Shown here one piece after another: positions 1-39,622 of a stretch of DNA of 41,391 bases. Below the pieces are notes generated by a model. That model made no database searches and was not told where the DNA came from. It saw nothing but the letters and a program-made list of their open reading frames with translations. Position 1 is the first letter of the stretch. Each line of letters starts with the position of its first letter. The stretch is from Chloroflexota bacterium. GTDB taxonomy: Bacteria; Chloroflexota; Chloroflexia; Thermobaculales; Thermobaculaceae. The stretch is from assembly GCA_902810765.1 (NCBI GenBank), contig CADDYR010000004.1, positions 1 through 41,391 of the forward strand, given 5' to 3'. A program made the position numbers and the translations under genes.

Positions 1-1009
1 CCCGCTCCCTGAGCTCGACCGCGATCATGAGCCCCACCCCCCTCACCTGCCGCACGTTCGGCGACTCGATCTCCCGCAGCCTCGCGAGCATGTAGCTGCC
101 CACCTGCTCGGTGTGCGCGAGCAGGTCGAGCCGCTCGATCTCGTCGAGCACCGCGGTCGCCGCGGCTGCCGCGAGCGGGTTCCCCCCGAACGTGTTGCCG
201 TGCGAGCCCTGAGGCACCCTCTCGGAGACCTCCTCTGTCGTGATCGTCACGCCCATCGGCACCCCGTTCGCGACCGCCTTCGACAGGCACATCAGGTCGG
301 GCACGACGCCGCTGTGCTCGCAGGCGAAATATCTCCCCGTTCGAAAGCCCGTCTGCACCTCGTCCAGGATCAGCAGGGTGCCCCGCGCGTGGGCGAGCTC
401 CAGCGCGGCCCCGAGGTAGCCCTCGGGCGCGGGGTGCACGCCCGACTCGCCCTGCACGGGCTCGAGGATCACCGCGGCCGTGTCCTCGGTCAGCGCGGCT
501 TCGAGTGCGTCTGTATCCCCGTAGGGCACCTGCACGAACCCCTCGAGCAGCGGCAGAAACGGCTCGCGGTACTTCTTGTCGGCCGTCGCGCTCAGCGCTC
601 CCAGCGTGCGTCCGTGGTAGGCCCGCTTCGCCGAGACCACGCCACTGCGGCCCGTGGCCGCGCGCGCGAACTTGAACGCTGCCTCCACGGCCTCGGCTCC
701 CGAGTTGCTGAGGAACACCCTGCTCAGCCCCTGTGGAAGGGTGGAGCTCAGGCGCTCGAGGTACCGAGCGCGGGCGTCGTTGTAGAAGCTCTGGTGGCAG
801 CTGAGCAGCCTGCCCGCCTGCTCGCCGATCGCCTCCGTCACCGCCCTGTTCGCGTGCCCGAGCAGGTTCACGCCGTAGTTGCTCGCGAAGTCGTAGTAGC
901 GACGGCCATCGCTGTCCCACAGGAAGTAGCCCTCGCCGCGCACGAGTGCCACCTCCCGCTTCGCGTACATCGGCACGAGCAGCCTGTCCTCCGTCCGTTG
1001 TATGGTCAC
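1..1009 (-). CDS. lysJ: LysW-pathway aminotransferase LysJ (ArgD family), 3' end outside window
   Basis: This PLP-dependent class III aminotransferase would convert LysW-bound aminoadipate (or glutamate) semialdehyde to LysW-lysine (or LysW-ornithine). About 336 residues are present and the C-terminus runs off the left edge. The translation shows the family landmarks: an NSGAEAVEAAFKFAR phosphate-binding segment, LILDEVQTGFRTGR with the cofactor-binding Asp, and LSKAVANGVPMG, whose Lys should hold PLP. I start it at GTG 1009 because a strong AGGAGG lies just upstream (1015-1020). It is the last visible gene of the argG-lysJ operon, 27 bp after serC. On sequence alone it could be called ArgD or LysJ. 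The neighbouring lysW, lysX, lysY, lysZ and lysK favour a carrier-bound substrate, and a dual lysine/arginine role is inferred. Confidence 0.88.
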   Translation of the reverse strand, partial: MTIQRTEDRLLVPMYAKREVALVRGEGYFLWDSDGRRYYDFASNYGVNLLGHANRAVTEAIGEQAGRLLSCHQSFYNDARARYLERLSSTLPQGLSRVFLSNSGAEAVEAAFKFARAATGRSGVVSAKRAYHGRTLGALSATADKKYREPFLPLLEGFVQVPYGDTDALEAALTEDTAAVILEPVQGESGVHPAPEGYLGAALELAHARGTLLILDEVQTGFRTGRYFACEHSGVVPDLMCLSKAVANGVPMGVTITTEEVSERVPQGSHGNTFGGNPLAAAAATAVLDEIERLDLLAHTEQVGSYMLARLREIESPNVRQVRGVGLMIAVELRER

Positions 1010-1036
1010 GATGGCCTCCTTTCGCCAGGACCCGCC

Positions 1037-2122
1037 CTAGCCGTGGGCGCGCGCGAACTCTCCCATGAACTCCGCGAGCGCGCTCGCGCCCTCCAGAGTC
1101 ATCGCGTTGTAGAGCGAGACCCTGATCCCGCCCACCGACCTGTGCCCCTTGAGCCCGACGAAGCCCTCCTCGCCGGCGCGAGAGACGAACTCCCTCTCCT
1201 GCGCCTCGTCCGGCAGGCGGAACGTGACGTTCATGATCGAACGGCTGTCGGGCTCGGCGTGTCCGCGATAGTAGCCGTCGCTCGCGTCGAGCGCGTCGTA
1301 GACGACCTTCGCCTTCGCGCGGTTGCGCTCCTCCATCGCCCGAAGACCTCCCTGCCCCTCGATCCACTCGAGCACGAGGTTCGTGAGGTACACCGCGAAC
1401 ACCGGGGGAGTGTTGTAGAGCGAGAGCGACTCGGCGTGCGTGCGGTAGCTCAGCATCGTCGGCACGCCCTCGCGCGCCTGCCGCAGGAAGTCGTCGCGCA
1501 CGATCACGACGGTCAGCCCCGCGGGCCCGAGATTCTTCTGCGCGCCCGCGTAGATTAGCGCGAACCTCGCAGCGTCTATCGGCCGCGACATGATGTCGCT
1601 GCTCATGTCCGCCACGAGCGGCGCGCTCCCCACCTCGGGCCAGCGGTGCCACTGGGTGCCGTAGATCGTGTTGTTCGAGGTGATGTGCACGTACGCGGGC
1701 GAGTCGCTCAGGCGGACCTCGTCCGGCCCCGGCACGCGTCTGTACCCCCCGTCCCTCGTGCTCGCCGCCACGTGGGTCCGACCAATCCCCCTCGCCTCGG
1801 CGAGCGCCTTCTCCGACCACGAGCCCGTGAGTACGTAGTCCGCCGTCCTGCCCCCGGGGAGGAAGTTCATCGGGAGCATCGCGAACTGCGTGCTCGCGCC
1901 TCCCTGCAGGAACAGCACGTGGTAATCCGATCCCAGGCCGAGGAGCCCGCGGATCCGGTCCATCGCCTCGGCGTTGACCTGCTCGTACTCCTTCGAGCGG
2001 TGGCTGATTTCGAGCACGGACATCCCCGTGTCCGCGAAATCCAGCAGCTCTGCTTGCGCGCGCTCGAGCGCCTCCCTTGGGAGCACCGCGGGGCCGGCGT
2101 AGAAGTTGTATACCTTGCGCAT
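1037..2122 (-). CDS. serC: phosphoserine aminotransferase SerC
   Basis: This class V PLP aminotransferase normally converts 3-phosphohydroxypyruvate plus glutamate to phosphoserine in serine synthesis. The 361-residue length is typical of the family. Visible features are the N-terminal FYAGPAVLP motif, the FLQGGASTQFAMLPMNF phosphate/PLP region, ADMSSDIMSRP, and AGAQKNLGPAG, whose Lys is the Schiff-base residue. It starts with ATG 2122, 14 bp after the lysZ stop, and is followed 27 bp later by lysJ, so it is cotranscribed with the LysW operon. A serine gene inside a lysine/arginine operon is unusual. It may simply be co-regulated, or it may supply a second aminotransferase activity, since SerC enzymes are known to have side activities on other semialdehyde or keto substrates. 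The family call is secure; the reason for its position is not. Confidence 0.93.
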   Translation of the reverse strand: MRKVYNFYAGPAVLPREALERAQAELLDFADTGMSVLEISHRSKEYEQVNAEAMDRIRGLLGLGSDYHVLFLQGGASTQFAMLPMNFLPGGRTADYVLTGSWSEKALAEARGIGRTHVAASTRDGGYRRVPGPDEVRLSDSPAYVHITSNNTIYGTQWHRWPEVGSAPLVADMSSDIMSRPIDAARFALIYAGAQKNLGPAGLTVVIVRDDFLRQAREGVPTMLSYRTHAESLSLYNTPPVFAVYLTNLVLEWIEGQGGLRAMEERNRAKAKVVYDALDASDGYYRGHAEPDSRSIMNVTFRLPDEAQEREFVSRAGEEGFVGLKGHRSVGGIRVSLYNAMTLEGASALAEFMGEFARAHG

Positions 2123-2136
2123 TCGCCTCTCCTTGG

Positions 2137-2931
2137 CTAGCCGATGACCGTGCCCGCGCCCGCGAGCGCTTTCCGGATCGCCCCCTCGACGCGGCCGTCC
2201 GCGAACACGACCTGCCCGATGCCGCGCTCGAGGGCCTCGCGCGCGGCGAGCACCTTCTTCTTCGCACGCCCCTGCGCAACCTCCATCGCCTGCCCGATCT
2301 CGTCCCGGTCTATCCGGGAGATGAGGCTGCTCTCGTCGCTCACGTCTCGCATCAGGCCGGGGGTGTCGGAGAAGATCACGAGCTTGTCCGCCCCGAGCGC
2401 CACCGCGAGCTCCATCGCGAGCTTGTCCCCGTCGACGTTGATCGCCTCGCCCTCGTGCGAGATCGCGGGTGGGGTGAGCACCGGCAGGTAGCCGTTCTCG
2501 AGCAGCAGCGTGACGAGTTTTGTGTCCACGCTCTCGATGCTGCCCGCGTAGTCGCCCCTGAGCACCTTCGGCCTGCCGTCCTCGACCACCCGGATCTGGG
2601 GCTTGCGCCTGCCCCGCGCGATGCCCCCGTCGAGCGCGCTCAGCCCGACGGCGTTCACTCCCAGGCTCTGGAGCATCTCGACGATCGTCTTGTTCGCCTT
2701 GCCGCAGTACACCATCATGAAGACCTCCATTGTGCGGCGGTCGGTGTAGCGGCTCTTCTGCCCGGTGCTCGACGTCACTATCCGCGGAGGATGACCGAGC
2801 TGTTCGGAGACCTGGTCCATCTCGTAGTTAGCGCCGTGCACGAGCACCATCGGCTCCGAGACGCTCGGCACGTCGTCGAGGAAACGGTCGAGGTCCACCC
2901 CCTTGCTGCCCCCGATCTTTATGACGAGCAC
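2137..2931 (-). CDS. lysZ: [LysW]-aminoadipate/glutamate 6-kinase LysZ
   Basis: An amino-acid kinase family member, related to acetylglutamate kinase ArgB, that phosphorylates the side-chain carboxylate of LysW-bound aminoadipate or glutamate. The 264-residue protein opens with VIKIGGS, the Lys/Gly-rich nucleotide-binding strand. It continues with VLVHGANYEMDQV, a VNAVGLSALDGG segment, and INVDGDKLAMELA plus LVIFSDTPGL in the ATP-binding half. The GTG start at 2931 has a good AGGAGGGAA upstream. It is 11 bp after lysY and 14 bp before serC. The ArgB/LysZ family is clear. LysZ is preferred because lysW, lysX and lysY are adjacent. With only one kinase but two ligases in the operon, it probably serves both lysine and arginine branches (inference). 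Confidence 0.92.
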   Translation of the reverse strand: MLVIKIGGSKGVDLDRFLDDVPSVSEPMVLVHGANYEMDQVSEQLGHPPRIVTSSTGQKSRYTDRRTMEVFMMVYCGKANKTIVEMLQSLGVNAVGLSALDGGIARGRRKPQIRVVEDGRPKVLRGDYAGSIESVDTKLVTLLLENGYLPVLTPPAISHEGEAINVDGDKLAMELAVALGADKLVIFSDTPGLMRDVSDESSLISRIDRDEIGQAMEVAQGRAKKKVLAAREALERGIGQVVFADGRVEGAIRKALAGAGTVIG

Positions 2932-2942
2932 TCGCTTCCCTC

Positions 2943-3989
2943 CTATATCGGGTGCAGCCCCGGAAACTCGAGCGCGGCCGTCTCGGGGAACCCGAACCGG
3001 ACGTTGAACGCCTGCACGGCCTGCCCCGCGGCCCCCTTCATGAGGTTGTCGAGGGCAGCCATTACCACCACTCGCCCGTTGCGCTCGTCGAGCTCGAAGC
3101 CCACGTCACAGTAGTTGCTGCCCGCGAGGATCTTGGGCTCGGGATAGCGGTACACCCCGCTCGTCTCCTTGACGATCCTCATGAACGGCTCCTTCGCGTA
3201 CGCCCTGCGGTATATCCTCCAGAGCTCGCGCTCGTCCATCGGCTCCTTCAGGAAGACGTGGGAGGTCGAGAGTATGCCTCGCACGGCCTCGATCGAGGTC
3301 GCGGAGAACGAGATCCGTGGTGTGCCGTGGTCGCACGACAGCTCCTGCACGATCTCCGCGGTGTGGCGGTGGCCCGTGGGCTTGAACGACCTCATCGCGC
3401 CGCTCCGCTCGGGGTGGTGCGTGGCGAGCGAAACCCCGCCGCCCGCGCCAGACGAGCCGGTCTTGCCCTCGATCACCACCGGCTCGTCCAGGTCCACCAC
3501 CCCGGCCTGGAACAGCGGGTACAGTCCAAGGATCGCGGCCGACGAGAGGCAGCCACAGCCGGCGATGTAACTCGCTGTGTGCAGCTCCTCCCGGTGCAGC
3601 TCGGGCATCCCGTACACCCACTCCGAGAGGAGTTCGGGACGGCTGTGCTCGTGGCCGTACCATTCCGGGTAGTCATCCGGGTTGCGCAGCCGGAAGTCCG
3701 CGCTGAGGTCAATTATGACCGGCGCGAGCTCCAGCCACTCGCCGATGCGCTCCATCGCCCGGCCGTGAGGCAGCGCGAGGAAGAGCACGTCGCACCTCTC
3801 CAGGTCGTTCGAGCTCACGAACTTCAGGTCGGTGCGCTTGCGGAGGTTCGGGTGCACTTTGTACACGAACTTGCCCGCGTTCGACTCGGACGTCACCTGC
3901 TGAATGCGGACGTGCGGGTGAGAGAGGAGCAGGCGCAGGAGCTCTCCGCCCCCGTAGCCCGAGCCCCCGACTATCGAAACGTTCAGCAT
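2943..3989 (-). CDS. lysY: [LysW]-aminoadipyl/glutamyl phosphate reductase LysY
   Basis: An NADPH-dependent reductase of the ArgC/LysY family that converts the LysW-bound acyl phosphate to the semialdehyde. In the 348-residue protein the N-terminal VSIVGGSGYGGGELLRLL is a Rossmann dinucleotide-binding turn. YIAGCGCLSSAAILGL carries the catalytic Cys of the family. A SGAGGGVS loop and the HRHTAEI segment with the likely catalytic His follow. The C-terminal LDNLMKGAAGQAVQAFN is the classical ArgC/LysY ending. It starts with ATG 3989, 10 bp downstream of the ligase gene at 4000-4869, and ends 11 bp before lysZ. Whether it takes one or both carrier-bound substrates cannot be read from the sequence. 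The single copy beside two ligases favours both. Confidence 0.92.
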   Translation of the reverse strand: MLNVSIVGGSGYGGGELLRLLLSHPHVRIQQVTSESNAGKFVYKVHPNLRKRTDLKFVSSNDLERCDVLFLALPHGRAMERIGEWLELAPVIIDLSADFRLRNPDDYPEWYGHEHSRPELLSEWVYGMPELHREELHTASYIAGCGCLSSAAILGLYPLFQAGVVDLDEPVVIEGKTGSSGAGGGVSLATHHPERSGAMRSFKPTGHRHTAEIVQELSCDHGTPRISFSATSIEAVRGILSTSHVFLKEPMDERELWRIYRRAYAKEPFMRIVKETSGVYRYPEPKILAGSNYCDVGFELDERNGRVVVMAALDNLMKGAAGQAVQAFNVRFGFPETAALEFPGLHPI

Positions 3990-3999
3990 CTTCGCCTCC

Positions 4000-4869
4000 T
4001 CAGCCCGCGGCCGCCGGTTGGGCCCCGACGGTCCCCGCCTTCCGGACGAGGTATCCCACGATCTCGGCCGGGATGTCCACGTCGGTCGTCTCGATCAGAC
4101 CGTGGAACTCGGCGCCGACGTTGATCTCGATCACCTTGTAGCCATCGGGCGTCTCGATGAGATCCACCCCGGCTATGTCGGCGTCCACCGCCCCCGCAGA
4201 CCTCAGGGCTAGCTCCTCGATCTCCGGCGTGATGGGGCATCGTTCCGAGATGCCCCCGCGCGCCGTGTTGGTGATCCAGTGGTCGGATTTCCTGTACGAG
4301 GCCGCAATCACGCGGTCGCCCACGACGAACGCCCGGATGTCGCGCCCCGGCTTTCGGACGTACTCCTGAATGTAGAAGATCGAGTGGTGATACGAGCCGA
4401 GTATCTCCTTGTGCTCGAGCACCGCCTCGGCGGCCTCGCGGTCGTTGATCTTCGCCAGGAGCCTGCCCCAAGACCCCGTGTTCGGCTTGAGCACGACCGG
4501 GTAGCCCATCTCCTCTATCGCCTGCAGGGCGGAGGCCGGGGTGTAGGCGAGCATCGTGCGCAGGGTCGGGACGCCGTGCTCGATCAGCGCCATGTTCGTC
4601 AGGAACTTGTTGTCGCAGGTGATCGTCGCCTTGTAGCTGTTCACCGTGGGGATCCCCCAGCTCTCGAGCAGGCGCAGGGTGTACTCCGCGCGGCTGTGGA
4701 CGAGCCCCCGATCCAGCACGATGTCCACCTCCGGGAAGTCGCGCCTCTGGAGGTCGAACACGAGGTCGCGGTCGTCCACCCGGACGATCTCCACGCCGAG
4801 CTGCTCCGCCGCTCGGAAGATGAGCTTCTCCTCGATCCGGATTCGGGACAATAAGATACCTATCTTCAC
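4000..4869 (-). CDS. argX: LysX-family ATP-grasp ligase, probably ArgX ([LysW]-glutamate ligase)
   Basis: This 289-residue ATP-grasp ligase is predicted to join the alpha-amino group of an acidic amino acid to the C-terminal Glu of LysW. It shares with LysX the VLKPNTGSWGRLLAKI nucleotide loop, FYIQEYVRKPGRDIRAFVVG, and [12 protein letters not shown]. It differs from the second copy (5921-6769) where the substrate side chain is expected to sit: SYRKSDHW instead of [16 protein letters not shown] instead of GGGVVAID, and INVGAEFHGLIETT instead of [14 protein letters not shown]. The other copy resembles Thermus LysX as I recall it, so I infer that this one is the glutamate-specific ArgX. It begins with GTG 4869 in a GTGA overlap with lysK and is followed 10 bp later by lysY. 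The family is certain; the substrate is inferred. Confidence 0.72.
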   Translation of the reverse strand: MKIGILLSRIRIEEKLIFRAAEQLGVEIVRVDDRDLVFDLQRRDFPEVDIVLDRGLVHSRAEYTLRLLESWGIPTVNSYKATITCDNKFLTNMALIEHGVPTLRTMLAYTPASALQAIEEMGYPVVLKPNTGSWGRLLAKINDREAAEAVLEHKEILGSYHHSIFYIQEYVRKPGRDIRAFVVGDRVIAASYRKSDHWITNTARGGISERCPITPEIEELALRSAGAVDADIAGVDLIETPDGYKVIEINVGAEFHGLIETTDVDIPAEIVGYLVRKAGTVGAQPAAAG

Positions 4870-5924
4870 TTCGTCTCCGCCTCGTCAAGAATCTTGAGCG
4901 CGGCCTCGAGCACCCCTATCGCGCGCTCGTACTCCTCGAGCTCCAGATGCTCGTGCGGGGTGTGGTCGAGGGAGGAGTCGCCGGGACCGTACGCGAGCAT
5001 CGGGCACCGCCAGACCGGGCCAACCACGTTCATGTCGGAGGTGCCCGTCTTGACCTTGAACCTCGGCCGGGCACCAGCCCCGCGCAGCGCCCACAGGAAG
5101 CTTCGGACGAGTGGCGTGTCCCTATCTCCCCTCACCGCGGGATCGCCGTACGCTATCCGGAGCGCGGCCCCCTCGGCCCACTCCTCCAGCTGGCATCCGA
5201 GCCTCTCCGGCTCGTAGCCGAGCGGCAGCCGCACGCCCACGTCCATCTCGACGCGCTCGCTGAGGCCGTCGCTCGCGCTGTGGATCGAGCGCAGCGCGGG
5301 GGATACCTGATCGAACACCCTCTTCCCCTCGTTGTACTCGTCCGTCGCGCACTTGAGCCGGTTCCAGAACCGCACCGCGGCCTCGGGCGCGGACTCCTCG
5401 GGCCCCGCGCTGTGGCTCGGCGAGCGCTCGAGCGAGTAGCTCACCCGCAGGCTCCCCTTGTAGCCGAGCACGACGCTGTCCCACCCGCTCGGCTCGCCGA
5501 TCACGAGGTATCGCGGGCTGTACCGGTGTACGATGTATCGAGCGCCTCGCGAGTCGCCCTCCTCGCCCACCGCGCCGATCACCGTGAGCTTCAGGCGCTC
5601 GAGCGCTTGGGAGGCGGCGAGGCGCAGCGCCACGGCGGCGAACGCGGCCATCGCACCCTTCGCGTCCACGGCCCCCCGGCCGTAGAGCGCGCCGTCGCGC
5701 TCCTCTACCGGGATCTCCCCCGGCACGGTGTCTATGTGGCCGAGCAGCACGACCTCCACCGGCCCGTCGCCGACGGCGGCCACGAAGTTGCCCGCCTCGT
5801 CCGCGGCGGCCTCCAGCCCGTGGGAGCGGAACAGCCCGACGAGAAAACCGCAGACCCCGGCCTCCTCTCCCGTGGGGCTGTAGCGCTCGAGCATCTCCCG
5901 GAGGATGTCGCGCTCCCTCGTCAC
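4866..5924 (-). CDS. lysK: [LysW]-lysine/ornithine hydrolase LysK
   Basis: An M20-family metallohydrolase that releases free lysine or ornithine from LysW in the last step of the carrier cycle. The 352-residue protein has [16 protein letters not shown] with the first metal-binding His and the Asp two residues on. [14 protein letters not shown] carries the bridging Asp. [16 protein letters not shown] carries the catalytic and metal-binding Glu pair. A C-terminal [15 protein letters not shown] supplies the last His. GTG 5924 overlaps the lysX stop by 4 bp, and its stop overlaps the next ligase start by 4 bp, so it is translationally coupled on both sides. Homologous ArgE/DapE deacylases are alternatives, but the position between two LysX-family ligases and near lysW makes LysK the better call. 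Confidence 0.9.
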
Positions 5925-6769
5925 CTTCGCGCCCCCTCGCCCACGGCGATGACGTAGTCGGCGATGTGGCCGGGGATGTCCACCCCGGTCGTCGCGATGC
6001 TGTTGCGGAACTCCATAGTGTAGTTGACCTCGATGACCTCGAGGCCCTCGGGCGTCTCCACGAGGTCTATAGCCACCACTCCCCCGCCCACGGCCTGCGC
6101 CGCCTGCCTGGAGATGTGCTCCAGCTCGTCGGTTATCGGGCAGTTCTCCGCCCTGCCGCCCCGCGCGGTGTTCGTGATCCAGTGGTCGGAGTAGCGGTAG
6201 ATCGCGGCGATCACCCGGTCGCCCACGACGAACGAGCGAATGTCCCGGCCCGGCTTCTCCACCAGCTCCTGGATGTAGAAGATCGAGTGGTGGAACGTCC
6301 CGAGGATCTCCTTGTGCTCTAGGATGGCCTCGGCGGCGTAGCGGTCGCTGACGCGCGAGATCAGCCTGCCCCAGGAGCCGATGGGGGGCTTAAGCACGAC
6401 AGGGTAGCCGATCCGCTCGATCGCCTCCAGCGCCGACTCGGGAGTGAACGCGACGAGCGTGCGCGGCGTGGGCACGCCGCACCGGACCAGCGCCGCAGAG
6501 GTCTCGAGCTTGTTTCCGCAGATCGCCGCCACCTGGTGGGTATTGACTGTCGGCACCCCCCAGTCGTTCAGGATGCGGAGCGCGCTGAGCGCACGGGAGT
6601 GGTTGATCGCGCGCTCGAGCACGACGTCGTAGTCGAGGTCGGGGTGCTCGAGGTCGAGCACGACCTCTGGGTCGTAGATGCGCTCGGGCCGGATGCCCCG
6701 GTCCGCGAACGCTTCGAACAGCAGCTTCTCCTCGACACGGACCCGTGAGAGCAGGACGCCTATCTTCAC
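5921..6769 (-). CDS. lysX: [LysW]-2-aminoadipate ligase LysX
   Basis: A 282-residue ATP-grasp ligase that attaches 2-aminoadipate to LysW to start the second half of aminoadipate lysine synthesis. Visible are the N-terminal [19 protein letters not shown], the nucleotide loop [36 protein letters not shown], and [33 protein letters not shown] and [20 protein letters not shown] follow. The last segments agree closely with Thermus LysX as I remember it (AENCP, VGGGVVAVDL, EVNHTMEFKNS), so this is the better aminoadipate-specific candidate of the two copies. It starts with GTG 6769, 33 bp after lysW, and overlaps lysK by 4 bp. The specificity assignment rests on recalled motifs, not on an alignment. 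Confidence 0.85.
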
Positions 6770-6802
6770 CTTCGCCGCTCGTCGGTCATCGGCTTGCCGG
6801 GG

Positions 6803-6979
6803 CTACTCGCCCCAGTCCTCCTCTTCCTCTGGCGCGAGCTCGAGCTCGGGCGGGTCCACGCTCACCACCTCGAGCTCGGCAGCGCAGTCGGGGCACTGCA
6901 CGATCTCCCCCTTCTCCGCGTCCGCGAGCTGGATCTCGGCCTCGCACTCGGGACAGGTCGCGGTGTTCGTCTGGCTCAT
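6803..6979 (-). CDS. lysW: amino-group carrier protein LysW
   Basis: A tiny acidic carrier protein of 58 residues. Its C-terminal Glu is the attachment point for aminoadipate or glutamate, shielding the amino group and presenting intermediates to the Lys enzymes. The translation has two Cys pairs forming a zinc ribbon, CPEC (residues 9-12) and CPDC (29-32), and an acidic tail ending [13 protein letters not shown] at the very C-terminus is the diagnostic LysW signature. The start is ATG 6979, preceded by an AGGAGAGG-like site, 19 bp after argH. It ends at TAG 6803, 33 bp before lysX. The high Asp/Glu content matches the electrostatic binding known for the family. Confidence 0.96.
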
Positions 6980-6998
6980 CGTGACACCTCTCCTTGGA

Positions 6999-8348
6999 TT
7001 ACTTGTCGAACAGGTTCCTGAAGGATGCGTTCAGCTTCTCGATCTGTCCTGAGACCCGCTCCTGCTCGGCGCCTATGGCGTCCGTGAGGGCGGCGAGCCC
7101 CAGGTTGCCGCTCGCGCCCAGGTGGGTGCGCTTGCTCAGGCTCTCCCTGGGGTCGGCCGGAGGCAGGTCCTGAAGGCTCGCGCCCACCTGGCGGTACGCG
7201 TCTCGGAACGGCACGCCCCGCTGCACGAGCTCGTACGCCCGGTCGGTCGCGAACAGCTCGGGCGTGCAGGCCACGAGCATCCGATCCTCGTTCGGCTCGA
7301 GGCTGCCGACGGTCAGCTCCGCGACGGCCAGCGCGTCGAGCGTCGTCTGCACCGCCTCCATGAACGGCTTCTTCGTCTCCTGATAGTCCTTGTTGTAGCC
7401 AGAGGGCAGCCCGATCAGGACGCCCATCACCTGCTGCTGGTACCCCAGGACCAGGCTCGCCTTGGCGCGGATGAGCTCCATCATGCTCAGATTCTTCTTC
7501 TGGGGCATGATGGAGCTGCCGGTCACGAGCGCGTCCGAGACGGTGAAGAAGCCGTACTCGGCGGTCGTGAACAGCAGCGTGTCCTGCGCGAGCTTGCTGA
7601 GGTCGAGCATGATCTGGGCGAGCGCCTGGATCACCGCCGCCTCGACCTTGCCCCGGCTGTTCTGGGCGTACAACACGTTGTTCTGGACCTTCGCGAACCC
7701 CAGCCTGTCGGCGACGTACTGCCTGTCTATCGGCAGCGGCACCCCGTAGGAGGCCGCGGAGCCCAGCGGCGACTGGTCATTCAGGACATACGCCGTCCGG
7801 AGGAACAGCCGGTCGTCGAACAGCGCCTCCGCGAACGCCCCGGCCCAGGTGCCCGCGCTCGACAGCATCGCCCTCTGCATGTGCGTGTAGCCGGGCATCG
7901 GCACGAGCTCGTGCCTCTGGGCGAACCGCGCGAGCGCGGCGGCGCAGCTCAGGAGCGCGGCCTCCAGCTCCAGCAGCCTGCGCTTCGTGTACAGCCTGAG
8001 GGCGAGCAGCACCTGGTCGTTGCGCGACCTCGCCGTGTGGATCTTCTTGCCGACGTCGCCGTACCGCGCGACGAGGTAGTTCTCGATCTTCGTGTGAACG
8101 TCCTCGTCCTCCGGCGTCATCCGGAACTCGCCGGCCTCGTGGAGCCTGAGGATCTCCACGAGGCCGGCGCGCAGCCGATCGAGCTCCTCGGGAGCGAGCA
8201 CGCCGATCCTCTCCAGCATCTCGGCGTGCGCCAGGGAGCCGTACACGTCCGGCTCGACCAGCTCGTTGTCGAAGACCAGGTCGTCCCCGACCTCGAACCG
8301 CTCGATCGTCGCGTCCAGCCTCTGGCCCTTCTCCCAGAGCTTGCTCAC
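6999..8348 (-). CDS. argH: argininosuccinate lyase ArgH
   Basis: Cleaves argininosuccinate to arginine and fumarate, the last step of arginine synthesis. The 449-residue protein belongs to the fumarase/aspartase superfamily. It contains the signature [11 protein letters not shown], with the mobile-loop catalytic Ser in the SS pair, plus [17 protein letters not shown] and [10 protein letters not shown] with the catalytic His region. GTG 8348 overlaps the argG stop by 4 bp (GTGA), so the two are translationally coupled, and lysW follows after 19 bp. The direct argG-argH-lysW linkage is the strongest local evidence that the LysW genes take part in arginine as well as lysine synthesis. Confidence 0.96.
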
Positions 8349-9595
8349 TTAGCGGCTCCCACCTTCTGGGATTCCTGCTCCCTCCGCGCGAGCAGCTCGA
8401 ACGGCAGGCCCCAGATCTGTGCGGTCGGGCCGCAGAGCTGCTGGTTGAAGCTCGCGCTCGAGATCGAGCGAACGTCCGGGAAGAACAGGCCGGTCGGCGA
8501 CTTCCGCTCGAGGATGTCGACATTGCCCTTGTAGAGCTGGACCTTGTACGTGCCGTTCACGACGCCCTGCGACTGGGCGATGAACGCGTCGAGGTCGGCC
8601 TTCAGCGGGTGGTACCACTCGCCGTGGTACACCTTGTACGCCCACTGGGCGTCCACGATCTTCTTGAACTGGACCTCGTCCTTCGTGAGCGTGAACTGTT
8701 CGAGGTCCTGGTGGATCTTGATGATGATTTGGGCCGCGGGGGCCTCGTAGATCTCCCGCGACTTCATGTCCATGATCCCGTCCTCGAACATGTCTATCTT
8801 GCCGATGCCGTTCCGGCCACCGACATCGTTGAGCTCGTTGATGATGTCCTCGAGCTCCATCTTCCGGCCGTCGAGCGCGACGGGCAGGCCGGCCTCGAAC
8901 TCTATCGCGAGCGTCGTCGCCTGGTCGGGCGTCTTCTGGGGCGGGGTGTACCACAGCCACACGTCGTCCGGCAGCTCGGTCTCGAGGGTGATGCCGCCGC
9001 TCGCGATGGACCGGCACCACATCGTCTTGTCGTCGCCGCCCGCGATGATCTCGGTGACCGGCACGCCGTAGCGCTCGCAGAGCTCCATCTCCTCGGTCCG
9101 CGTGAGGTCGAAGTCGCGCACAGGCACGATGATCTCGAGCTGGGGCGCGAAGTACTTGAACACCTTGTGCATTCGGTACTGGTCGTTGCCCTTGCCGCTC
9201 GAGCCCTCCGCGAGCGCGTCGCAGCCGAGCTCCACCGCCTTCTGCGCGACCTTCCCGGCGATGAGCTGCCGCGTCATCGAGGTGGAGACGGGATAGCCGT
9301 TGTAGCTCGAGTTGGCGCGGATGGCCTTCGTGAGCCAATCGCTCGTGAACTCGTCCTTGGCGTCGATCAGGATCGGCTCGACTCCGAGGATCTTCGCCTT
9401 GCTGAAGCTCTGCTGGACCTCGTCCTCGCCCTGGCCGACGTCCACGGTGATGGGGACGATCTCCTCAGCCCTGTACTTCTCGCGCAGCAGCACCACGCAC
9501 AGCGCCGAGTCGAGGCCGCCCGAGTACGCGAGCGCGACCTTGCGCACCTTGGGCACGTCCGTCTGCTGAACCTTCTCGATTGCCGAAAGCGTCAT
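8345..9595 (-). CDS. argG: argininosuccinate synthase ArgG
   Basis: Condenses citrulline and aspartate with ATP hydrolysis to AMP to give argininosuccinate. The 416-residue protein has the N-type PP-loop ALAYSGGLDSALCVVLL near residues 22-38, the ALAEGSSGKGNDQYR region that binds citrulline/aspartate, and a C-terminal multimerisation domain. ATG 9595 is preceded by AGGAGGAGAACA. It is the first gene of the operon and lies directly behind the arginine T-box leader and its terminator (9638-9920). The first roughly 15 residues form a short polar extension before the PP-loop strand. Downstream it overlaps argH by 4 bp. Confidence 0.96.
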   Translation of the reverse strand: MTLSAIEKVQQTDVPKVRKVALAYSGGLDSALCVVLLREKYRAEEIVPITVDVGQGEDEVQQSFSKAKILGVEPILIDAKDEFTSDWLTKAIRANSSYNGYPVSTSMTRQLIAGKVAQKAVELGCDALAEGSSGKGNDQYRMHKVFKYFAPQLEIIVPVRDFDLTRTEEMELCERYGVPVTEIIAGGDDKTMWCRSIASGGITLETELPDDVWLWYTPPQKTPDQATTLAIEFEAGLPVALDGRKMELEDIINELNDVGGRNGIGKIDMFEDGIMDMKSREIYEAPAAQIIIKIHQDLEQFTLTKDEVQFKKIVDAQWAYKVYHGEWYHPLKADLDAFIAQSQGVVNGTYKVQLYKGNVDILERKSPTGLFFPDVRSISSASFNQQLCGPTAQIWGLPFELLARREQESQKVGAAK

Positions 9596-9637
9596 CTGTG
9601 TTCTCCTCCTTGTCGTATGACGTCATTTCCGGGCAAC

Positions 9638-9670
9638 AAAAAACTCCCGTCCCCAAAAAGGGACGAGAGT
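9638..9670 (-). terminator. T-box intrinsic terminator
   Basis: On the minus strand ACTCTCGTCCC and GGGACGGGAGT form an 11-bp stem with one T-G wobble around a T-rich loop, followed directly by a run of six or more T (9638-9643). The 5' arm is shared with the T-box antiterminator, so the two structures exclude each other. It lies about 40 bp before the argG start. Confidence 0.92.
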
Positions 9671-9915
9671 CATCGCGCTCCCGTGGTGCCACCCTTGTTG
9701 CCTGCGACCCTTCGAGAGGTCGCGCGGCCACTCTCGGTTGTTGCCTGCGCGGTAACCAACCGCCGGCCCTACTTGCCTGGAGGCTTTCTTCGGGCCGCCG
9801 CTCCGGCGCGCGTTCTGCGGAGGGTCTTCCGGTGCCGGGCTCCCACCGCCCCCGACTCGCTGTCGAAAGGGTCTCCGCGTACTACTCGCCTTCAGCGCGG
9901 GCGTATTCGGTTCAA
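9638..9915 (-). ncRNA. T-box riboswitch leader, Arg (CGC) specifier
   Basis: On the minus strand this leader ends in a canonical T-box element, AAGGGTGGCACCACGGGAG (9677-9695). In its antiterminator form it can pair with CTCTCGTCCCTT, the same bases that otherwise build the terminator stem at 9638-9670. Stem I can be drawn by eye: GGCG (9887-9890) pairs with CGCC (9805-9808), then AGTA (9883-9886) faces AGAACGCG (9809-9816), then GCGGAG (9873-9878) pairs with CTCCGC (9817-9822). The codon after GAA in the specifier loop is CGC (9810-9812), arginine. The bulge TGGC (9688-9691) would pair with a tRNA 3' end having discriminator G. Uncharged tRNA-Arg should therefore allow readthrough into argG. 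The T-box call is secure; the specifier was assigned by manual folding. Confidence 0.93.
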
Positions 9916-9920
9916 GGCAA

Positions 9921-9950
9921 AGTATAGAGGAGGCTGCCCGGCGATGTCAA
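9921..9950 (-). promoter_or_regulatory. promoter of the argG-lysJ operon
   Basis: Minus-strand TTGACA (9945-9950) and TATACT (9921-9926) are separated by 18 bp, close to the sigma70/A consensus. Transcription would begin near 9914, at the 5' end of the T-box leader. The promoter sits in the 29-bp gap after the acetyltransferase stop (9980), so the argG operon has its own start. Confidence 0.85.
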
Positions 9951-35071: not shown

Positions 35072-36241
35072 TCAGCCTCCGCGACGGGCAGCGGCCGCGG
35101 GCTCGGCACCGCGGTGGCCGTTGGGGCCGGGTCGGCTCCCTCCGAGGAAGCTCGTCACGACCTCCGTCACCGCGTCCCAGTCCTTCAGGAACGCGTCGTG
35201 CCCGTTGAGCGACTCGATCTCGACGTACCGCGCGGACTTGCCCAGGCTACGCAGCAGATCGGCCTCGGCCTTCACCTCTACCGGCGGGTACAGCCAGTCG
35301 GTGCTGATGCCGACGTGCAGCGTGCGGGCCCGGACGCGCTCGAACGCCTCGGCGAGCGAGCCGAAGCCCTCGGCCGCGTCGTACAGGTCCATCGCGCGGG
35401 TTAGGTACAGGTACGAGTTGGCGTCGAACCGCCTGGTCAGCTTCGTACCCTGGTGCTCCAGGTAGCCCTCGACGTCGAACTTCTCCCCGAAGATCGAGGG
35501 CTCGGAGGGCCTGGTGGCGGGGCTCCGCCCGAACCGCTCCCACATCCCCTCCCGGCTCTGGTACGTGATCATCCCGATGATGCGCGCGATCGCGAGCCCC
35601 GCCGACGGTCCCTCGTCCGGATAGTATCGGCCGTTCCGCCAGGCGGGGTCGAGCAGGATCGCGTTCCGGCCCGCGAGGTTGAAGCCGATGGCCTGAGGAG
35701 TGATCCGCGAGGTCGCCCCGAAGATCAGCGCCGACTCCGCCATCTCCGGGTAGCGCACGACCCACTCGATGGCCTGCATTCCACCGATGGAGCCCCCGGC
35801 GACCGCCGCGAGCCGCTCGACCCCCAGCGCCCGGAGCAGGCGCACCTGCGCGAGCACCATGTCCTGGATCGTGATGACGGGGAAGTCGGTCGCGTAGGGC
35901 TCGCCGGTGGCGGGATTGACCGAGGAGGGTCCCGTCGAGCCCTGACAGCCCCCGAGCACGTTCGAGCAGATCACGAAGTAGCGCTCGGTGTCGAAGGCGC
36001 GGCCCGGCCCCACGAGGGGGTCCCACCAGCCGGGTGGACACCCCTCCCCTCCGTCCAGGCAGGCGGCGTGGGAGTCTCCGGTGAGGGCGTGCAGCAGCAG
36101 GACCGCGTTGTCGCGCGCGCCGGAGAGCTCGCCGTACGTCTCGTACGCGAGCGTGACCCGCTCGAGCTCCCCACCCCGCCACAGTGGCAGGGGAGCCTCG
36201 AGGGTATGGAACTGCTTTTGCTGCGACCGCGTCTGCTGCAT
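35072..36241 (-). CDS. metX: homoserine O-acetyltransferase MetX
   Basis: Transfers an acetyl group from acetyl-CoA to homoserine, committing it to methionine. The 389-residue alpha/beta hydrolase has LLHALTGDSHAACLD, FVICSNVLGGCQGSTGPSS, VAGGSIGGMQAIEW with the nucleophile Ser, VGISTDWLYPP with the catalytic Asp, and LNGHDAFLKDW with the catalytic His. It ends with an Ala/Arg-rich tail. I start it at ATG 36241, which follows the riboswitch terminator and has GGTGGAGCGGG upstream; the open frame to 36313 runs into the terminator hairpin. It is the first gene of the SAM-controlled operon. Codons 1-80 and the leader are duplicated exactly at 39164-39693. Confidence 0.95.
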   Translation of the reverse strand: MQQTRSQQKQFHTLEAPLPLWRGGELERVTLAYETYGELSGARDNAVLLLHALTGDSHAACLDGGEGCPPGWWDPLVGPGRAFDTERYFVICSNVLGGCQGSTGPSSVNPATGEPYATDFPVITIQDMVLAQVRLLRALGVERLAAVAGGSIGGMQAIEWVVRYPEMAESALIFGATSRITPQAIGFNLAGRNAILLDPAWRNGRYYPDEGPSAGLAIARIIGMITYQSREGMWERFGRSPATRPSEPSIFGEKFDVEGYLEHQGTKLTRRFDANSYLYLTRAMDLYDAAEGFGSLAEAFERVRARTLHVGISTDWLYPPVEVKAEADLLRSLGKSARYVEIESLNGHDAFLKDWDAVTEVVTSFLGGSRPGPNGHRGAEPAAAARRGG

Positions 36242-36288
36242 TCCCGCTCCACCGACTTTCGGGCCCGAGGAGGTCGGAGTCGGCGGGC

Positions 36289-36317
36289 AAAATAAAGCCC
36301 CTTGCCGCAGCAAGGGG
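36289..36317 (-). terminator. SAM-I riboswitch terminator (copy A)
   Basis: Minus-strand CCCCTTGC, loop TGCG, GCAAGGGG, followed by C and TTTATTTT. The hairpin lies 41 bases after the aptamer and 48 bases before the metX ATG, as expected for a transcriptional SAM-off switch. Confidence 0.93.
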
Positions 36318-36357
36318 ATGGCAGGAATCTAAGCGGTTGCTCTCTTAGCCTGATACC

Positions 36358-36460
36358 CCTTATCTCGCGGGCTGAGCACCCGCCGGAATTGGCACCTGGC
36401 GCTTGCGCGCTGGTTGTCGGGCTTCACAGGGCCGTCTCCCTCCACCTCTCTTGATAAGGC
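36358..36460 (-). ncRNA. SAM-I riboswitch (S box), copy A, controls metX operon
   Basis: The minus strand shows the S-box consensus in order. The P1 strand CCTTATC (36453-36459) pairs with GATAAGG (36358-36364). AAGAGAGGTGGAGGGA, GTGAAGCCCGACAACC and GGTGCCAATTCC match the conserved core, which includes the kink-turn and the SAM-binding bases. The downstream CTAAG/CTTAG sequences can form the antiterminator. SAM binding should favour termination at 36289-36317 and so lower expression of metX, aspartate kinase, hom, asd and ppc. Confidence 0.96.
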
Positions 36461-36509
36461 CGGCTCGGTATTCGATTGTTCAGGTAACGGGCCACCAAAG
36501 ACTGTGTAG

Positions 36510-39479: not shown

Positions 39480-39519
39480 ATGGCAGGAATCTAAGCGGTT
39501 GCTCTCTTAGCCTGATACC

Positions 39520-39622
39520 CCTTATCTCGCGGGCTGAGCACCCGCCGGAATTGGCACCTGGCGCTTGCGCGCTGGTTGTCGGGCTTCACAGGGCCGTCTC
39601 CCTCCACCTCTCTTGATAAGGC
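39520..39622 (-). ncRNA. SAM-I riboswitch (S box), copy B
   Basis: Sequence identical to copy A, with P1 strands and core intact, so it should fold and bind SAM if transcribed. The downstream genes are now the metX fragment and the MFS transporter. Expression is doubtful because the -35 region differs: TACTAT (39672-39677) remains, but TTGACT is replaced by TCAAGG. Confidence 0.95.

Follow-up and report, generated by a model that had tools for sequence, protein, structure and literature searches.

Does this Chloroflexota bacterium make arginine and lysine on the same carrier protein, and which amino acid governs the shared enzymes? The question is raised by a gene cluster on the 41,391-nucleotide stretch of DNA analyzed here (the window), which is the entire contig C4 of an assembly of 384 contigs (completeness, 96%; contamination, 4.6%), so that single absences from this genome carry little weight. 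The cluster, argG-argH-lysW-lysX-lysK-argX-lysY-lysZ-serC-lysJ, is read from the minus strand behind a sigma-70-like promoter, a T-box leader, and a terminator, and its adjoining genes share 4 bases or lie no more than 33 bases apart. Open reading frame calls and NCBIfam models, from which all gene identities are taken, bear out this order as given in a preliminary description of the DNA; serC is a further member of the operon, and the argG is of a divergent subfamily.

The cluster (all coordinates on the minus strand) begins with argG1 (8345..9595; TIGR00032, 353.3 bits, cut-off 268.2), which encodes a divergent argininosuccinate synthase with motifs YPVSTSMTRQ, EGSSGKGNDQYRMH, and GGDDKTMWCRSIAS, and argH, encoding argininosuccinate lyase (6999..8348; TIGR00838, 334.8 bits, cut-off 279.5). 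These are followed by a LysW pathway set: lysW, encoding the amino-group carrier protein (6803..6979; TIGR01206, 79.3 bits, cut-off 53.2), whose C-terminus EEEEDWGE includes the EDWGE end; two LysW ligase genes whose products both carry GSWGR, lysX (5921..6769; LysX-type motif of 12 protein letters, not shown) and argX (4000..4869; ArgX-like motif AEFHGLIETTDV); lysK, for the [LysW]-lysine/ornithine hydrolase (4866..5924; NF003367, 415.8 bits, cut-off 363); lysY/argC, for the LysW-aminoacyl-phosphate reductase (2943..3989; TIGR01850, 397.9 bits, cut-off 233.6); lysZ/argB, for the LysW-aminoadipate/glutamate kinase (2137..2931; NF010659, 416.2 bits, cut-off 223); and lysJ, for the LysW-semialdehyde aminotransferase (2..1009). 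The contig stops within lysJ and so leaves the operon without a visible 3′ end, and the truncated gene scores under its model cut-offs (best NF042418, 380.8 bits, cut-off 700). Between lysZ and lysJ lies serC, encoding phosphoserine transaminase (1037..2122; TIGR01364, 490.9 bits, cut-off 443.6), a passenger or unexplained member with no counterpart at the matching place of the operon in the related genome G003.

On the arginine side, searches of the genome for argJ and argB, proposed in the preliminary description, returned no ArgJ match and no second ArgB among five AA-kinase matches, leaving lysZ as the sole ArgB-like kinase. The known arginine branch requires the ornithine carbamoyltransferase ArgF. 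None of the seven family genomes, including that of Thermobaculum terrenum, has an OTCace match of at least 175 bits, compared with 22 of 24 other genomes of the class, and thus the final steps of arginine synthesis, as known, are incomplete in these seven genomes. The family has two types of argG, ArgG1 and a canonical ArgG2, beside ArgX and argH. ArgG1 occurs in six of the seven family genomes and, among genomes examined for ArgG, in 7 of 8 that lack ArgF versus 0 of 4 that bear it. Like canonical argininosuccinate synthases, such as that of T. thermophilus (PDB 1j1z), ArgG1 scores above the TIGR00032 cut-off and retains GKGNDQ; because the ArgG1 proteins scanned pass this cut-off, routine annotation would hide them. 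Unlike those enzymes, it sits on a stem of 2.39 changes per site in the tree, and a 2-residue deletion with GGDDKT[ML]WCRS replaces the YSxDxN segment, which presumably has a role in the ArgG substrate pocket and is missing in 9/9 ArgG1 proteins but kept in 19/19 other ArgG rows. A tentative and rather doubtful suggestion is that ArgG1 replaces ornithine carbamoyltransferase, making the guanidino group together with ArgH by another condensation and so finishing arginine without ArgF. It might, for example, join ornithine and N-carbamoyl-aspartate (the PyrB product) directly into argininosuccinate, or perform a citrulline-forming step ahead of canonical ArgG2. If true, carrier-bound ornithine and an ArgF bypass would both stand under one Arg T-box.

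The same absence of ArgF in 7/7 family genomes would suit an operon for lysine whose arginine branch has degenerated, with arginine or citrulline taken from the surroundings and the Arg T-box serving citrulline salvage by argG and argH. T. terrenum is described as growing best on complex media, with yeast extract giving growth factors (PMC3035366), and the family genome G004 has an arginine-deiminase-like gene that falls under its model cut-offs. Salvage would, however, have no use for ArgG1 or for an additional ligase bearing an Arg-type motif, each present in six of the seven family genomes (the ligase is broken in G005, and no ArgX-type ligase was found in G004, which is 78% complete), and at further loci in Chloroflexota, too, ArgG1 lies close to argX and argH. 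We consider this alternative unlikely.

The two ligases bear on the case for two products. NCBIfam models do not separate them: at 346.5 and 321.2 bits, each exceeds the cut-off of the LysX model TIGR02144 (275.6). The window LysX has the motif RNS, in one class with KNS of the Thermus enzyme, and the window ArgX has HGL, which is close to KGF of Sulfolobus ArgX, with its GL differing from both Sulfolobus GF and haloarchaeal AL. At full length, the structure entries for Thermus LysX outscore Sulfolobus ArgX as matches to both ligases. In the tree the window ArgX is placed apart from its Sulfolobus counterpart, a placement that is tentative because the archaeal branch is long. Sulfolobus LysX is described as shifting to glutamate upon an Asn-Thr to Gly-Phe exchange, and the haloarchaeal enzyme as not being switched by motif swaps (both PMC10433800). 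A dual-use signature of one LysX-type (RNS) and one ArgX-type (HGL) ligase is found here, with substrates predicted from motifs and HGL not identical to a proven ArgX motif.

Genes for the entry into lysine synthesis lie elsewhere. A search for homocitrate synthase, homoaconitase, and homoisocitrate dehydrogenase, also proposed in the preliminary description, located a homocitrate synthase scoring above its NCBIfam cut-off and homoaconitase-family subunits, encoded as hcs-hacA-hacB on another contig behind a separate T-box with Lys specifier AAG, whose UGGU matches A73 of both tRNA-Lys read. The third enzyme could not be singled out, as none of the three Iso_dh proteins of the genome passes a model for homoisocitrate dehydrogenase. 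DapB has no match in the genome and LysA is present, possibly as a relic or as a sign of a diaminopimelate (DAP) branch. A complete acetylated arginine pathway together with a complete DAP lysine pathway, named beforehand as contrary evidence, was not found, the former judged by ArgJ and an extra ArgB and the latter only by DapB (absent) and LysA (present). LysA would fit an operon for arginine or ornithine only, in which both ligases take glutamate or another substrate and lysine is made through the DAP branch, as would the operon's argG/argH and its Arg T-box. In that account the two enzymes encoded behind the Lys T-box, homocitrate synthase and homoaconitase, would have no outlet; it is also at odds with the Thermus LysX class of the lysX motif and with the failure to find DapB in the genome, and we regard it as quite improbable.

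The evidence for arginine sensing comes from the leader. The promoter, TTGACA-18-TATACT (9921..9950), has 11 of 12 consensus bases (1 found versus 0.0 expected in shuffles). The T-box leader (9656..9904) matches the whole Rfam model RF00230 from stem I to antiterminator; its score of 59.5 bits (E = 1.5e-12) lies under the gathering score of 93, as do the scores of 7 among the genome's 10 other T-boxes. An intrinsic terminator (9642..9671) overlaps the antiterminator (2 terminator-like sites found versus 0.6 expected in shuffles). Folded freely, the leader is unexceptional (z = −1.14; 12/100 shuffles fold equally well), and the evidence for it is therefore the covariance match, conservation, and covariation. 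The covariance alignment (GAA-CGC-G-stem), checked over 9904-9656 and calibrated on the 10 other leaders, upholds the specifier CGC (Arg) at 9810..9812 first read in the preliminary description. AACGCG at this position is invariant in all seven Arg leaders of the family (the window and six others). Of the two helices flanking it, the lower shows pairing in every cell (100%) and double changes in 3 of its 4 pairs; the upper pairs less regularly, in 69% of cells. A tRNA-Arg(GCG) is encoded in the genome, and its discriminator G73, present on 4/4 tRNA-Arg read, complements the C of the leader UGGC. At all 11 T-boxes found in the genome the specifier suits the downstream gene or pathway and the N of UGGN complements the discriminator of a tRNA for that amino acid (downstream genes of the other 10 were identified by eye, and hcs-hacAB additionally via NCBIfam). 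A misread specifier, with another tRNA sensed through a shifted codon (ACG Thr, AAC Asn, or GCG Ala), would fit the low Rfam score and a loop length that differs by one base among leaders, but is highly improbable given that the stem below the specifier fixes the frame with its double changes, that UGGC requires a G discriminator where tRNA-Thr (the only one of the three read) has U, and that the 10 other leaders follow the same rule.

The operon is kept in G003, L034, L036, and L039, with a fragment in L035, and L037 has T-box-argG-argH-argX with the Arg specifier CGG (read by eye). At four other Chloroflexota loci the shared set lies behind a Lys T-box, not an Arg T-box.

We therefore favor, at a probability of about three in four, a bacterial dual-use LysW operon with an Arg T-box on the shared enzymes and a Lys T-box on lysine entry. 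This reading is built on leader, specifier, tRNA match, gene set, the two ligase motif classes, and the second T-box, from which we infer the substrates of the ligases, the sharing of the later enzymes between both products, and readthrough. LysX would load alpha-aminoadipate and ArgX glutamate onto LysW; LysZ, LysY, LysJ, and LysK would process both conjugates, to lysine and ornithine; and ArgG/ArgH would complete arginine. The Arg T-box is predicted to respond to uncharged tRNA-Arg by terminator/antiterminator readthrough: when arginine is short, the anticodon of tRNA-Arg(GCG) would pair with the CGC specifier and its GCCA end with the antiterminator UGGC. The Arg leader would thereby set carrier and shared enzyme capacity, and the Lys leader (AAG, UGGU) would gate the aminoadipate feeding LysX and hence the share of capacity used for lysine. 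The dual use of LysW put forward in the preliminary description is favored by the Arg T-box over the LysW set, both ligase classes, the lack of matches to ArgJ, a second ArgB, and DapB, and the hcs and homoaconitase genes; the ArgF not found counts against it. Its further proposal, that lysine synthesis would also rise with uncharged tRNA-Arg, is not supported in the sense of tRNA-Arg acting alone: the committed hcs-hacA-hacB genes have their own Lys T-box, so that arginine starvation should raise shared capacity, with lysine entry answering to tRNA-Lys.

The closest parallel is the dual arginine-lysine pathway described for Sulfolobus acidocaldarius, with a single LysW, the two ligases ArgX and LysX, and one shared set of later enzymes (PMC10433800); the present system differs in being bacterial, in having one cluster with argG-argH and a T-box, and in that ArgF was not found. 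The Thermus thermophilus lysine pathway shares LysW, LysX (RNS/KNS motif class), LysZ, LysY, LysJ, and LysK but is described alongside a classical arginine pathway (PMC10433800). The Caldithrix abyssi LysWXZYJ-Hcs locus is likewise a bacterial LysW cluster outside Thermus/Deinococcus, which PMC5317091 assigns to lysine synthesis, with argAGCBEH as a separate arginine locus. The ArgW-ArgX pathway of Natrinema and other haloarchaea also makes arginine on a carrier, but is described as arginine only, with DAP lysine and ArgF (PMC10433800), whereas the window genome has LysX and aminoadipate-route genes. T-boxes have been reported in Chloroflexi (PMC2494555, PMC3766115), and the Arg leader resembles other RF00230 T-boxes of amino acid operons in its stem I specifier, UGGN contact, and terminator (the transcriptional attenuation type), with the difference that its target is a carrier-protein operon. 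Our literature search found no report joining "T-box" and "homocitrate synthase," and the only joint mention of "T-box" and "LysW" that it found uses LysW as a transporter name. The individual parts are known, and their combination here appears to be a variant.

Judged from its genes, this lineage of Chloroflexota seems to use a single small carrier protein for the synthesis of arginine as well as lysine. As cultured T. terrenum also has no recognizable ArgF, the missing arginine step is directly testable. If our reading holds, one carrier pathway with two products would be steered by two tRNA sensors, and in different Chloroflexota the shared genes appear to sit behind either the Arg or the Lys sensor; the family would then offer a clean system for how a shared pathway is allocated between two products.

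The operon opens on the minus strand with a promoter-like site (9950-9921), a T-box leader (9904-9656; RF00230, 59.5 bits, E = 1.5e-12), and a terminator-like site (9671-9642), downstream of which lie ten densely packed minus-strand genes: argG, argH, lysW, lysX, lysK, argX, lysY, lysZ, serC, and lysJ, the last interrupted by the contig end. The window is the entire contig C4 of an assembly of 3.98 Mb in 384 contigs (96.11% complete, 4.62% contaminated). The nearest loci come from metagenome genomes, mainly Chloroflexota by label, with one Thermobaculum sp. and one Rubrobacter sp.; four related loci (L034, L036, L039, and L035) overlap with the relatives' genomes G002, G001, G005, and G006 and are not independent samples. 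The operon is also known from a cultured organism, because it is present in G003, taken as Thermobaculum terrenum, as T-box(CGC)-argG-argH-lysW-lysX-lysK-argX-lysY-lysZ-lysJ, followed by two other genes and a second argG. The serC gene (1037-2122) lies within the operon in the window and in loci L034, L036, L039, and L216 and is missing from that of T. terrenum. Elsewhere in the window are two SAM riboswitches (36357-36460 and 39519-39622, minus strand, 73.7 bits each), identical over 104 bases; they belong to a repeat some 500 bases long (about 36000-36500) that recurs at an offset of 3162 bases.

At the sequence level, T-box regulation of the operon is solid. The window leader falls under the Rfam gathering cut-off, as do 7 of the 10 other T-boxes in this genome, and its free fold did not add support (z = -1.14); the covariance model and comparison were used instead. 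The ten further T-boxes (contigs C104, C108, C99, C14, C28, C121, C18, C199, C137, and C30) precede leu/ilv, thr, trp, lys, leu, ile, met, gly, val, and asp genes. Specifiers were read at one Rfam alignment position in seven leaders, including that of argG, and by eye with the same rule in the other four; downstream genes were named by eye unless scanned. On this ruler, the codons are CUC before both ilvB-ilvC-leuA and leuS, ACC before thrS, UGG before trpE, AUC before ileS, AUG before metG (in a leader with GAC where others have GAA), GGC before glyS, GUC before valS, GAC before aspS, AAG before homocitrate synthase, and CGC before argG. For each of the 11 T-boxes, there is a tRNA for the same amino acid whose discriminator base complements the N of UGGN. 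The genome encodes a tRNA-Arg whose anticodon, GCG, exactly complements CGC, and the discriminator is G in all four tRNA-Arg read, which fits the UGGC of the argG leader; it is A in both tRNA-Lys read, a misfit to UGGC (ARAGORN covered 30 tRNA loci and three further stretches, out of 45 tRNA matches).

Seven Arg leaders from the family were compared: one each from the window, G003, and three relatives, plus a tandem pair from G004. AACGCG is invariant in all seven; the helix below it shows changes on both sides in three of four pairs and is 100% paired, and the helix above is less regular (69% paired). Across both helices, 81.4% of cells pair, versus at most 41.4% when the partner is slid. Together, the T-box ruler, the tRNA match, and the invariant AACGCG with its covarying helix make the Arg specifier well supported, and the CGC reading of the preliminary description was borne out by the covariance-model run. 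The tandem leaders of G004 (L212, about 140-690), both CGC, stand before argG1-argH-lysW-argG2; the genome, which is 78% complete, yielded no LysX/ArgX ligase. For Dehalococcoides, PMC2494555 gives three T-boxes.

The two ligases of the operon differ in motif. That of lysX belongs to the Thermus LysX class (MEFKNSVHTTGVDIP in Thermus LysX), and that of argX reads AEFHGLIETTDVDIP, versus PEFKGFMVATNINVA in Sulfolobus ArgX. Three PDB entries, 3vpd, 1uc8, and 1j1z, are from T. thermophilus, the first being its LysX. According to PMC10433800, 3vpb is Sulfolobus tokodaii ArgX and 5k2m is Thermococcus LysX; two residues of the signature are diagnostic, Asn-Thr in the LysX of Sulfolobus and Gly-Phe in its ArgX, and exchanging them shifts substrate preference, although swaps in a haloarchaeal enzyme failed. 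Because of those failed swaps, because both window ligases pass one and the same NCBIfam LysX model, and because both are closer over their full length to Thermus LysX than to Sulfolobus ArgX, we regard the motif as good but not conclusive evidence for substrate class.

At least one ligase occurs in all 78 loci, and NS-type and non-NS-type ligases occur together in 18, of which L039 (second ligase broken), L090 (labelled an archaeon), and L077 (like L090, with unclear motifs) are doubtful. The dual-class loci come from Chloroflexota, Bipolaricaulota, and others. A quick tree was built from 62 of the 105 sequences, with the partial L039 ligase left out. On it, the class label switches eight times by parsimony, and starred branches require at least three switches; a small number of ArgX-like copies adjoin the LysX of the lineage they come from (Bipolaricaulota, 98; L108, 100; the L044 group, 87 without a star). 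Given these dual loci and label changes, dual-ligase LysW clusters are spread in bacteria, so that the window is not unique in this respect, and they may have originated repeatedly. Six loci (L042, L054, L111, L188, L189, and L187, the last three in genomes G012, G030, and G024) encode a further LysX-like ligase, about 30% identical, between lysW and lysK; its motif is EFR-SL in L042, L054, and L111.

Dual use of the LysW operon for arginine and lysine is probable. The preliminary description had pointed to genes elsewhere in the genome by which such use could be judged. ArgJ had no matches (control positive in 10 of 14 genomes), and there is no separate ArgB, since the five amino acid kinase matches are aspartate kinase, glutamate 5-kinase, LysZ, and two UMP kinase matches. 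Homocitrate synthase is encoded on contig C14 (TIGR02146, 440.7 bits; cut-off, 413.55), adjoined by genes for the large and small subunits of a homoaconitase-family enzyme, the three lying directly 3′ of the T-box with AAG and UGGU. A homoisocitrate dehydrogenase model was passed by none of the three Iso_dh proteins, which are LeuB-, isocitrate dehydrogenase-, and tartrate dehydrogenase-like. LysA is present, divided between two contig ends with an overlapping stretch, and could be a relic or a sign of a working diaminopimelate (DAP) pathway; the one other component of that route searched, the DapB C-terminal domain, had no matches in this genome (control, 11 of 14).

The family has no recognizable ArgF. 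PF00185 was searched in this genome and 30 relatives, with a control that was positive in 14 of 14. Matches in the seven family genomes do not exceed 101.4 bits, whereas 22 of the 24 other genomes of the class have one of at least 175 bits, of which that of G024, the sole one directly checked, is ornithine carbamoyltransferase. The match in the window's genome is PyrB by NCBIfam rather than ArgF, adjoins pyrC- and carB-like genes (by eye), and has aspartate carbamoyltransferases as its best PDB sequence matches; the remaining matches in the family were classed on their scores. An assembly gap is rejected for the family because all seven genomes share the loss, among them G003 with two contigs and 99% completeness, and by these profile searches the gap in these genomes is real.

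The window argG belongs to a divergent subfamily, ArgG1, that is set apart by a 100/100 branch and has a stem 2.39 changes per site long. The YSxDxN segment has a role in the ArgG substrate pocket, and GGDDKT[ML]WCRS[IL]AS replaces it in 9 of 9 ArgG1 sequences versus 0 of 19 other rows. The alignment was given 24 loci and left 28 rows, including the window and a reference; ArgG1 of L051 and L055, ArgG2 of L039 and L055, and both L196 and L201 dropped out through the length filter, duplication, or frame breaks. Among 12 chosen genomes, a set outside which G010 falls (83% complete, without an ArgF-like match), ArgG1 occurs in 7 of the 8 without an ArgF-like match (G000 to G005 and G030) and in none of the 4 with one (G008, G011, G012, and G024). 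The remaining genome, G006, has a fragmented operon whose argX contig (4137 bases) stops short of argG. Canonical ArgG2 was found in 6 of the 7 ArgG1 genomes; in the window's genome, the place where it would be expected lies beyond the contig end. This distribution suggests that ArgG1 makes ArgF dispensable, but since the genomes are related and mostly of one family, the association represents few events, not twelve independent ones.

Carrier-bound arginine and lysine synthesis and T-boxes are both known already. Our literature search, mostly without subscription papers, found no paper joining a T-box with the LysW carrier pathway or homocitrate synthase, and nothing nearer appeared among titles and abstracts; the sources consulted include PMC10433800, PMC3766115, PMC2494555, PMC7311316, PMC5317091, and PMC4490483. 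In PMC5584792, "LysW" denotes a transporter and not the carrier protein. PMC8129789 lists the LysW pathway among pathways with most genes present but with gaps.

Four Chloroflexota loci with depth-labelled names (L044, L051, L055, and L056), probably from soil, have a contrasting design. In these, a Lys T-box (AAG; by covariance model in L044, by eye in the others) precedes hcs-hacA-hacB-lysW-lysX, and the three loci long enough to show it continue with lysK-lysY-lysZ-lysJ. A GF-type ArgX is encoded apart, divergent from argG-argH. The three loci reaching further on that side (L044, L051, and L055) carry argG1-argH-ArgR-like-argG2 upstream of hcs, divergent from argX; these loci may control arginine synthesis through a repressor, the ArgR label being by eye, rather than through a T-box. 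In G024, an Arg T-box (CGC) precedes argF-lysW-ligase-lysK-argX, and a weaker second T-box in the same cluster (L187, 10635-10895, 39.1 bits), to which no safe specifier could be assigned, precedes lysX-lysY-lysZ-lysJ. Another candidate, L058, was rejected as a leader, having just a T-box-like core with flanks unlike a leader.

Arg and Lys leaders were seen together only in the window's genome. The preliminary description had proposed that a lack of charged tRNA-Arg would also raise lysine synthesis through LysW; this needs a change, because the Arg leader would govern the shared carrier and enzymes but homocitrate synthase, where the route feeding LysX would begin, has its own Lys leader. The likely arrangement in this organism is thus one of two sensors, in which shared capacity would be set by tRNA-Arg and entry into lysine synthesis by tRNA-Lys.
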